Source: an uncultured Bacilli bacterium
GTDB taxonomy: Bacteria > Bacillota_I > Bacilli_A > RFN20 > CAG-826
Reading direction: 5' to 3'
Length of the DNA stretch: 41,154 nt
Assembly (NCBI GenBank): GCA_944350425.1
Contig: CALVOX010000001.1
Coordinates: 1-41,154, forward strand
Of this stretch, positions 32,963-38,268 are shown piece by piece. The position numbers and the translations under genes are program-made. Below the pieces are notes generated by a model. It was not told the DNA's origin. It saw only the letters and a program-made list of their open reading frames with translations, and searched no databases. Numbering within the stretch: the stretch's first letter is position 1; each line of letters opens with the position of its first letter.

Positions 32963-33166
32963 AATTTACTATTTAAATCTAAAATTTGTATTTTATGCAG
33001 TGGCGAAGCAAAGGTGGGTTTGTTATCAAATAGGAATTATTCTTTTAATCTTGAAAAGGATGGCGTATATTATATATCAAAAACAAGTTTGATTAATGAT
33101 GTGTTATATCTTTCCTATAAAGATTATTTAAAATTTATTGAAACAGGAGGTTTATTATATGAATAA
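32963..33166 (+). pseudogene. Probable remnant ORF, 3' end of a lost gene
   Basis: A 67-codon open frame with no ATG; GTG at 33014 is the only plausible start and has no ribosome site. The translation reads like real protein (segments SNRNYSFNLEKDGVYYISK and LSYKDYLKFIETGG). Its stop codon overlaps the lipoprotein start as ATGAATAA, and the lipoprotein's AGGAGG lies inside it. This arrangement is typical of two genes that once formed an operon. The upstream part appears to have been lost at or near repeat copy A. Function unknown. Confidence 0.4.
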
Positions 33167-33647
33167 ACTAGTTAAAACTCTTTCCTTATTAATATTACCT
33201 TTTACATTAGTATCTTGTAGTTCAAAGTTAACTAATTTTGAAGATAAAGATAAATGGGGACCTTTAAATGAAGAACAAGTAGTTACTTTTAAAAAAGATT
33301 GTGCATCTTTATTTGGTACTGATGAAGATATTAATGGAGTAATTATTAATGAATATTTTGGTACTTTTGATGATATGAGTTTCTATTTTGTTAGTTCGTC
33401 TATACATAAAGATGGAATAGATATGGGATCAATGTTTGGCAAATTTGGTGATTATGTCTGGAAATTTACTAGATATGGTGATTACTTTGTTTATAGTGAT
33501 GAAGGAACTTATCGAATGTTTGATGCTCATAACGAAGGAATTGTAAGTGATGAAACTTTAAAGAAAGTAAATGACTCTTTATTAGATATGGACCCTGAAT
33601 TAAAAGAATATGCCGATTTCGTTTCAGGTTTATATCCTGATAACTAG
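33159..33647 (+). CDS. Putative lipoprotein of unknown function
   Basis: A 162-residue secreted lipoprotein. The N terminus is MNKLVKTLSLLILPFTLVSC, a basic start, a hydrophobic stretch and a lipobox LVSC with Cys20 as the lipidated residue. The mature part is acidic and aromatic-rich (DDMSFYFVSSSIHKDG, GDYVWKFTRYGDYFVYSD), suggesting a small beta-rich domain. No family recognised. A TTG at 33138 is also in frame, but ATG 33159 has AGGAGG 8 bases upstream and gives a correct signal peptide. A terminator follows directly. Confidence 0.8.
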   Translation: MNKLVKTLSLLILPFTLVSCSSKLTNFEDKDKWGPLNEEQVVTFKKDCASLFGTDEDINGVIINEYFGTFDDMSFYFVSSSIHKDGIDMGSMFGKFGDYVWKFTRYGDYFVYSDEGTYRMFDAHNEGIVSDETLKKVNDSLLDMDPELKEYADFVSGLYPDN

Positions 33648-36193: not shown

Positions 36194-37585
36194 ATGTATT
36201 TACTTCAATCTCGTTACAAAATAGAGAATAAATCTCTTCGTTATTATGGTTTAAGAAATAAAGATAATATGTTTAAAAATGTTATTAAACTTAATAACAA
36301 ACAATTTTGTATTATTAAATCTTTGCCAAAAGAGTTAACTAATAAAGAATTAAAAGTATTAGGAAAGAAATTAGTTGATATAGCAGTAGTTAAAGAAGAA
36401 GACTATAAAAAAGTACCAACATCATTAAAAGAAGCTCATTTTTGTAAAAATTGTTGTGCAAATGATTTTATTATTCCTGGTTTAGAATTTGATGAAAACG
36501 GTTTATGCCCAATGTGTCAAAGTAAAGATGATACAAAATGGATGAAAGCAGTTGTTCCGATTTTAAATGATATTCCTAAATCTAAAAAATCAAGATTTGA
36601 TATTGCTTTATTTTATACTGGTGGGAAAGATTCAACTTTCTTACTTTATTATTTATCTAAGATTAAAAACTTAAGAGTTTTAGCTTTAACTTGGGAAATC
36701 CCATATATGTCTTTATCGGCTAAATTATCAATTGAAGGAGCAAAAAAGAGTTTTGATAAAGTCGAATTTATTTCCCGAAAAGTTGATAACGAATCACTTA
36801 AAAAGATCTATTCAAAGTTATATAAAATAAGTGGAAATACATGTGCTTGTCCTTCTTTAGCTTATGTTTTATTTTATGAAATATTAGTTTATGAAAAGAT
36901 TCCTTATTTTGTTGCAGGTAATGAACCAGTTCAAATGAAAGGACTATATTATAATCATATGGCTCCTAAAATTGCTTATAAGTTTGGAAATAATACTTTT
37001 TTCAATGTATTAATATCTCTTGGAAGAATCTTAACTTTACATCCACCTTTAAGAAAAGGTCAAATTCAAACTTTATTAACGATGAAGCAACTCGCTTATG
37101 GTGATAATGTTTTTAAAAAACTAGCTGGATATCAAAATGATTTAGTATCTAATGTTTGTAAAGCTATAAAAGAAGTCCCATCTATTTTAAAACCTTTAAA
37201 AAGAGCAATTAGAAGAAGTTCTTGGAGTGGAAATATACCTTCTTTTATCCAAGTAGATTTAAATGATGTTTCTAAAGGGAATTACGATTGGCGTAAAGTT
37301 AAAGATATTTTAGCTAAAGAATGTGGTTATGTTGCTCCTAGCAATATAAATAAAGGGTTACATACTTCTTGTCAAATTGAAAAATGTAAAGAATATAGTC
37401 AGTTTATTCGTTTTTATAAGATGGAATCAACAATGATACCTTTTTCCTCTCTAGAAATATCTTTAGCAAGTAGAGATGGTAATATAACTAGAGAAGAAGG
37501 TATAAAAGAAATTGAAGAGAGTTTAGGTTTTTCATTAAAAGAGGTTGATGAATGCAAGATAATGAAAGATTATTTTCAAAAATAA
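36194..37585 (+). CDS. PP-loop ATP pyrophosphatase, N-acetyl sugar amidotransferase (WbpG)-like
   Basis: A 463-residue protein. An N-terminal extension (1-80) of unknown fold precedes a four-Cys unit C84xxC87...C105xxC108 with the wording GLEFDENGLCPMC, then the PP-loop YTGGKDSTFLLYYLSK (141-156), which adenylates a carbonyl or thiocarbonyl oxygen. Further Cys lie at 217/219 (NTCACPS) and 377/393/398. The C-terminal SLASRDGNITREEGIKEIEE recalls WbpG-type amidotransferases, which normally work with HisH/HisF-like partners. None is here. Instead the next gene overlaps by 34 bases and encodes a ferredoxin-type electron carrier. That suggests an Fe-S-dependent thiolation or amidation. AAAGG lies about 11 bases before the ATG. 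Substrate unknown. Confidence 0.7.
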   Translation: MYLLQSRYKIENKSLRYYGLRNKDNMFKNVIKLNNKQFCIIKSLPKELTNKELKVLGKKLVDIAVVKEEDYKKVPTSLKEAHFCKNCCANDFIIPGLEFDENGLCPMCQSKDDTKWMKAVVPILNDIPKSKKSRFDIALFYTGGKDSTFLLYYLSKIKNLRVLALTWEIPYMSLSAKLSIEGAKKSFDKVEFISRKVDNESLKKIYSKLYKISGNTCACPSLAYVLFYEILVYEKIPYFVAGNEPVQMKGLYYNHMAPKIAYKFGNNTFFNVLISLGRILTLHPPLRKGQIQTLLTMKQLAYGDNVFKKLAGYQNDLVSNVCKAIKEVPSILKPLKRAIRRSSWSGNIPSFIQVDLNDVSKGNYDWRKVKDILAKECGYVAPSNINKGLHTSCQIEKCKEYSQFIRFYKMESTMIPFSSLEISLASRDGNITREEGIKEIEESLGFSLKEVDECKIMKDYFQK

Positions 37586-38268
37586 ATATTGTAACTTATC
37601 TTACTTATACTTTTAATTCTTTTAAAGTTGCTAAATTTTGTAGTAATTATTTAAATTATGAACTAATCGATGTTCATAATTTAGATTTAACTAAACCTAT
37701 AAACAATATAATCTTAGTATTTCCAATCCATAGTGAAGATGCACCTAATATTATTAAAGAAGTAGTAAGTAAAATTAATTCAAAAAGAATGATTATTATT
37801 GCTACATTTGGAAGAATTAATCATGGTAATGTTATTTATCGACTTAAATATAAATTTAATTTACCTTTAGTTGGAGCATCTTATTTTCCTACTAAGCATT
37901 CTTATTCAAAAGAGGATCAGTTTATACCTAAGTATGAATTACTTATTCCTCTTTTAAATAAGATAAATAGCGATAAATATATTGATATACCTAAAGAGAA
38001 ATCGACCTTAGGTTATAATATCTTTCCAAAGTTAAGAGCTAGATTAGGTATAAAAATAATTAAAAAAGATAAATGTAATAATTGTAATATTTGCGGTGAT
38101 AATTGTTTTAATAAAGCGATTAATAAAGGAATTATTAATAAAAATTGTATCCATTGTTTAAGATGTATTAGCCTTTGTCCATCAAATAATTTAGATTATA
38201 AAATGAATATTGTTTTAAGATTATATTTAAGAAAACAAAGAAAAAATAAACCCTTTATTTATCTATAA
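37552..38268 (+). CDS. Flavodoxin-like/2x[4Fe-4S] ferredoxin protein (EFR1-like)
   Basis: A 238-residue protein with a flavodoxin-like domain (about 10-140) and a C-terminal dicluster ferredoxin: C175xxC178xxC181xxxC185 and C199xxC202xxC205xxxC209. This matches the EFR1-type ferredoxin layout. The loop that binds FMN phosphate, usually SGTGNS, reads TYTFNS (about 18-23), so the two glycines are lost and FMN may not be bound. The last 25 residues are basic (LRLYLRKQRKNKP) and could touch RNA, acidic protein or membrane. GAGG lies 7 bases before the ATG. The 34-base overlap with the PP-loop gene implies the two are co-produced, probably as partners. Confidence 0.75.
   Translation: MQDNERLFSKINIVTYLTYTFNSFKVAKFCSNYLNYELIDVHNLDLTKPINNIILVFPIHSEDAPNIIKEVVSKINSKRMIIIATFGRINHGNVIYRLKYKFNLPLVGASYFPTKHSYSKEDQFIPKYELLIPLLNKINSDKYIDIPKEKSTLGYNIFPKLRARLGIKIIKKDKCNNCNICGDNCFNKAINKGIINKNCIHCLRCISLCPSNNLDYKMNIVLRLYLRKQRKNKPFIYL

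Follow-up and report, generated by a model that had tools for sequence, protein, structure and literature searches.

A PP-loop protein related to N-acetyl sugar amidotransferases and its dedicated flavodoxin-ferredoxin partner in gut anaerobes

Two groups of PP-loop enzymes are relevant to the protein considered here. The N-acetyl sugar amidotransferases (NASATs; TIGR03573, with WbuX, WbpG and PseA) possess a tetracysteine preceding the PP-loop, which in the solved structure 8WEX (LpNASAT) binds zinc (PMC10607449). The iron-sulfur-dependent thiolases, comprising TtcA, TtuA, NcsA/Ctu1 and LarE proteins of the CXXC-C type, adenylate their substrate and pass on sulfide from the open iron of a [4Fe-4S] cluster (PMC7138817, PMC10067955), whose ligands in NcsA are Cys142, Cys145 and Cys233 (PMC10067955). 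For LarE-Tm from Thermotoga it was noted that generating a [4Fe-5S] cluster from persulfide would presumably need an additional reductant (PMC9283937). A third described family, the EFR1 ferredoxins (NF038196), combines a flavodoxin-fold N-terminus with a 2[4Fe-4S] C-terminus. Here we analyse two overlapping genes, P1 and P2, from the genome of an uncultured Bacilli bacterium, which encode relatives of these systems; the window is the whole 41,154-nucleotide stretch of contig CALVOX010000001.1. No paper describing the pair was found in the open-access literature, in keeping with the original prediction, which knew of no such pair, and the pair thus appears to be undescribed so far.

Gene layout and families of P1 and P2

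The features of the locus are collected in Table 1. The overlap of the two genes, which the ORF coordinates give at exactly the predicted length, implies translational coupling, and many other P1/P2 loci likewise show an overlap of 34 or 4 bases. The genome (1.15 Mb, 17 contigs) has Bacilli metagenome-assembled genomes (MAGs) as its closest relatives. Judged by sequence, the divergent upstream neighbour of the pair looks like an acetate kinase gene and the downstream neighbour like a glycogen branching enzyme gene. Further upstream (33138-33647) lies a small lipoprotein-like ORF of 169 aa, read from a TTG start and containing an LVSCSS lipobox.

Table 1. Features of the P1/P2 locus (positions in the window)
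Feature	Position	Strand	Remarks
P1	36194..37585	+	463 aa, PP-loop ATP-pyrophosphatase-like; divergent branch of the NASAT (WbuX/WbpG/PseA) superfamily
P1 N-terminal domain, ~75 residues	36194..36418	+	beta hairpin, helices 35-42 and 50-56; from the model
Tetracysteine C84-x2-C87 / C105-x2-C108	36443..36517	+	predicted zinc site as in LpNASAT; 99/99 rows
PP-loop FYTGGKDS, residues 140-147	36611..36634	+	from the homologue alignment
C217-A-C219	36842..36850	+	candidate Fe-S ligands, placed where TtcA/NcsA have CxxC; 99/99 rows, 23-residue spacing
C393 and C398 (HTSCxIExC)	37370..37387	+	candidate third and fourth ligands; invariant in 99/99 rows
P1/P2 gene overlap, 34 bases	37552..37585	+	from the ORF coordinates
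P2	37552..38268	+	238 aa, EFR1-like flavodoxin-ferredoxin
P2 2[4Fe-4S] motifs: C175, C178, C181, C185; C199, C202, C205, C209	38074..38178	+	all eight invariant; Fer4 Pfam match

A Pfam search assigned P1 to no family. Among the NCBIfam models, the one that fits P1 best is TIGR03573 (WbuX, N-acetyl sugar amidotransferase; E 4e-19), which aligns to residues 82-249 only and scores 69.2 bits, far below the curated cut-off of 203.2 bits; P1 proteins of other genomes score 45-73 bits. TIGR00269, taken as the model for the Fe-S PP-loop thiolases, was not among the family matches of P1 up to an E-value of 1. According to the AlphaFold2 model (pLDDT 89), P1 is predicted to adopt the same fold as LpNASAT (8WEX; Z 19.0, rmsd 4.3 over 300 residues), including a related C-terminal region, whereas other PP-loop enzymes, among them the [4Fe-4S] enzymes NcsA (6scy) and LarE (8cnz, 8cp4) as well as TtuA, match at Z-scores of only about 10-11. 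P1 therefore belongs to the NASAT superfamily, in which it forms a divergent branch. The PP-loop seen in the original prediction is invariant from T142 to S147 across the homologue alignment. P1 differs from the NASATs in its additional N-terminal domain, for which Pfam returned only chance matches at E-values up to 10, and from the [4Fe-4S] thiolases in a helical insertion of about 90 residues. Since a separate TtcA-type protein is encoded in the same genome, P1 is not the TtcA of this organism. That TtcA-type PP-loop protein (C1:195642-196811; L143:982-2154) is 390 aa long, whereas most relatives have 250-290 aa; the difference lies in about 120 additional residues at its C-terminus. Some relatives (L186-L189, L191) have long forms too.

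P2 consists of a flavodoxin-fold N-terminal domain followed by an eight-cysteine 2[4Fe-4S] ferredoxin domain, and its model (pLDDT 88) matches flavodoxin folds in the PDB. Domain matches, invariant cysteines and model thus bear out the earlier view of the second gene as a flavodoxin-like, dicluster ferredoxin protein. All 17 P2 members tested match the EFR1 model (best E-value 5.8e-24), while P2 of the window reaches 54.9 bits and stays under the curated cut-off of 75 bits. Unlike EFR1 ferredoxins at large, P2 forms a subgroup of its own, found only together with P1.

Exclusive pairing of P1 and P2

Among GTDB genomes, 181 stretches with P1 homologues were found, and 80 of them were retained for analysis. 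These 80 loci belong to MAGs of Clostridia and Bacilli, plus Paludibacteraceae in three cases, and in every one of them the ferredoxin gene lies directly downstream of P1, mostly overlapping it. Additional Bacilli loci show the two genes codirectional in three cases, the window included, and convergent, tail to tail, in seven. Taken together, the ferredoxin gene adjoins P1 in 90 of 90 distinct intact loci (83 downstream and codirectional, 7 convergent), nearly all of them from MAGs. None of these loci carries the PP-loop gene without its ferredoxin gene, and the dedicated electron carrier postulated originally is in line with this result. Co-occurrence gives the same picture: P1 and P2 are present in the same three of 59 relatives and absent together from the others. 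Among 395 genomes of the class, about 20 contain P1 homologues, full or decayed, the weaker matches being NASAT-type proteins. In the same set, sixteen P2 matches of 257-328 bits all lie beside P1 and one more match runs into a contig end, while P2-like proteins away from P1 all score below 100 bits with a profile that, being built from P1-paired members, leans towards these; no orphan of the P2 subgroup was seen among the 395 genomes. The pairing of P1 and P2 is thus exclusive and dedicated.

On the P1 tree, the convergent gene order needs at most two changes. The Bacteroidota rows stand in two places among Firmicutes, a placement that would fit transfer, MAG contamination being another possibility. 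Two decayed copies were seen: one P1 breaks off at residue 83, and 90 bases further downstream an IstA-like transposase ORF begins (L051:5759-6010); the other is frame-disrupted and its ferredoxin gene is broken too (L050:5888-7651). Overall, many gut anaerobes carry the pair, the hosts being uncultured members of the Bacilli and Clostridia as well as a few Bacteroidota.

The P1/P2 loci contain no third conserved neighbour, be it a HisH/HisF-like gene or a glutaminase candidate, and no recurring glycan cluster, which agrees with the absence of HisH/HisF-like ammonia partners stated in the original prediction. The commonest other neighbour family, a MATE-looking transporter, occurs at 10 of about 100 loci, duplicates included. 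No small ORF, for example one for a precursor peptide, recurs widely next to the module; an Rfam search for riboswitches and other RNAs returned only tRNAs, PADLOC gave only a weak match of the P2 ferredoxin region to BrxP, and plasmid and phage collections contained no match to the module. As the surroundings change from locus to locus and the module stands by itself in them, its substrate should be a common one, for instance a nucleoside of tRNA, a cofactor or some central metabolite.

Cysteines and candidate metal sites of P1

Eight cysteines of P1 (C84, C87, C105, C108, C217, C219, C393 and C398) are invariant in all 99 rows of the homologue alignment, some of which stem from overlapping loci of one genome; C377 is kept in 83 of the 99. 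Both the C84xxC87/C105xxC108 unit and the extra cysteines near residues 217-219 and 377-398 had been noticed before, and the former unit or C217/C219 had been put forward as a possible metal site facing the PP-loop. C84, C87, C105 and C108 are the ordinary NASAT tetracysteine, which binds zinc in 8WEX, and probably not the redox site; zinc sites are likewise found in TtuA and NcsA. C217 and C219, by contrast, are candidate ligands at the position used by TtcA and NcsA.

As the profile-profile alignment of P1 with TtcA covered the PP-loop region only, the comparison with the thiolases was based on motif spacing. As in these enzymes, a cysteine pair follows strand 3 of P1 and a further cysteine comes later. 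The distance from the second cysteine (C219) to the glycine ending the next strand (strand 4) is 23 residues in 97 of 97 P1 proteins. The same distance is found in all 11 TtcA-type proteins in which the motif could be measured, between C145 of NcsA and its strand-4 glycine according to the alignment, and in 8 of 8 proteins of a second, NASAT-like set from the class, which carries a CxxC motif plus a later HFDC. Compared to the ligand pattern of the thiolases, C219 thus sits at the exact spacing, C217 is shifted by one residue (CxC in place of CxxC), and C393 comes in the right order; in addition, P1 has the extra C398, the residue five positions after C393 being a cysteine in every sequence measured. 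We infer from this pattern that P1 probably binds a [4Fe-4S] cluster where the thiolases do, with C217, C219, C393 and perhaps C398 as ligands, facing the PP-loop.

C217, C219, C393 and C398 are not general to NASATs. Four of five genuine WbuX-type proteins above the TIGR03573 cut-off (L155-L158) lack equivalents of them. The fifth, which from reading its sequence we take to be PseA-like (L159; G325:C140), shows CxxCxCxC at the C217/C219 position and a later cysteine. Unlike P1 with its constant partner gene and its lack of a glycan cluster, the NASATs of this class that were examined are accompanied by no travelling ferredoxin gene, and the substrate of the PseA-like proteins is, by annotation, a sugar.

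Proposed reaction and competing explanations

The pair probably puts sulfur, or a similar group, on a target molecule. With a confidence slightly short of even, we propose that P1 and P2 form one two-component enzyme in which P1 adenylates the substrate and transfers sulfur from its [4Fe-4S] cluster while P2 supplies electrons. Hereby, P1, equipped with the zinc tetracysteine and the putative cluster facing the PP-loop, would bind ATP and adenylate a substrate oxygen of the carbonyl or amide type. Cluster-bound sulfide would then attack the adenylate to yield the thio-product and AMP, as has been proposed for TtcA, TtuA, NcsA and [4Fe-4S] LarE. P2 would deliver electrons to P1 via FMN and its two [4Fe-4S] clusters, most likely so that persulfide sulfur is converted to sulfide on the cluster and the cluster is restored at each turnover. 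FMN binding, electron path and sulfur chemistry of the pair are conjectured from its domains and from the thiolases. By analogy, a dedicated flavodoxin-ferredoxin could fill the reductant role called for in the case of LarE-Tm, and SufS, a possible sulfur source, is encoded in the genome.

Several observations speak against thiolation. The first two ligand positions of P1 form a CxC instead of a CxxC motif; the invariant C398 could complete the ligation of the cluster, leaving no open iron for sulfide; the TtcA profile comparison extends over the PP-loop region alone; and the PseA-like NASAT also has cysteines at the C217/C219 position although its family makes amidines and not thio-products. 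Furthermore, to our knowledge, the known Fe-S thiolases function without a dedicated ferredoxin. Since both the fourth cysteine and the parallel to PseA can be read either way, the data do not distinguish thiolation from amidation or substrate reduction.

For amidation, P1 would act like WbpG or PseA, adenylating an amide carbonyl and adding ammonia to form an amidine, with cluster and ferredoxin in a structural, regulatory or redox-sensing role. The closest solved structure (8WEX), the only good family match (TIGR03573) and the PseA-like protein, which lies above the family cut-off and has cysteines at the same position, are all in favour of it. However, the score and the alignable region of P1 fall well short of that family (69 against 203 bits), no glutaminase candidate or glycan gene cluster recurs beside the pair, and every P1 copy comes with an electron carrier that amidation does not need; we consider this explanation unlikely. 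We judge it equally unlikely that P1 is a reductive enzyme in which an ATP-activated carbonyl or sulfo group is reduced by electrons from P2 via a four-cysteine cluster, following a logic similar to PAPS reductases and without sulfur insertion. While C217, C219, C393 and C398 could ligate a cluster fully, as would suit electron transfer, and P2 is a dedicated low-potential carrier, sequence and fold place P1 near NASATs and thiolases and not near PAPS reductases, and we know of no precedent in its branch. Improbable is a zinc-only P1 whose extra cysteines form a persulfide relay as in MnmA or ThiI and are reduced again by P2: the shift to CxC would suit such a relay, and Lactiplantibacillus LarE and MnmA-type enzymes use cysteine chemistry without a cluster (PMC9283937, PMC10067955), yet the cysteines of P1 stand where TtcA and NcsA bind their cluster, and the invariance extends to C393 and C398. 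Finally, the idea that a general ferredoxin gene sits beside P1 by chance or through mere operon packing, for which the abundance of ferredoxin genes in anaerobes could be adduced, is refuted by the 90 of 90 loci, the two geometries and the co-occurrence in 59 and 395 genomes.

Returning to the two-component enzyme, we consider it possible, albeit with still less confidence than the thiolation scheme itself, that P1 and P2 represent a new PP-loop class with its own carrier, by which gut anaerobes modify a widespread substrate in a ferredoxin-driven, Fe-S-dependent way; the class would yield an undescribed thio- or reduced product and would have spread horizontally. If true, this would be an Fe-S enzyme of the PP-loop type that has an obligate flavodoxin-ferredoxin donor of its own. 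It would also be relevant to a question still open for TtuA/LarE-type enzymes, namely how sulfane sulfur is converted into sulfide on the cluster. The two genes moreover provide a searchable marker for a modification in animal gut anaerobes.

Two further observations concern NASAT-like proteins outside the pair. The cysteines of the PseA-like protein L159 at the TtcA/NcsA ligand position suggest that some sugar amidotransferases, PseA-like ones in particular, may hold an overlooked metal site. In addition, what looks like an uncharacterised biosynthetic cluster recurs in several Bacilli genomes: NASAT-like genes with a TtcA-like CxxC..C set (L134, L136-L139, L141 and L142) are accompanied there by an acyl-AMP-ligase-like gene and by genes for a membrane protein, a HAD-type protein of ~480 aa and a large protein of ~780-940 aa.
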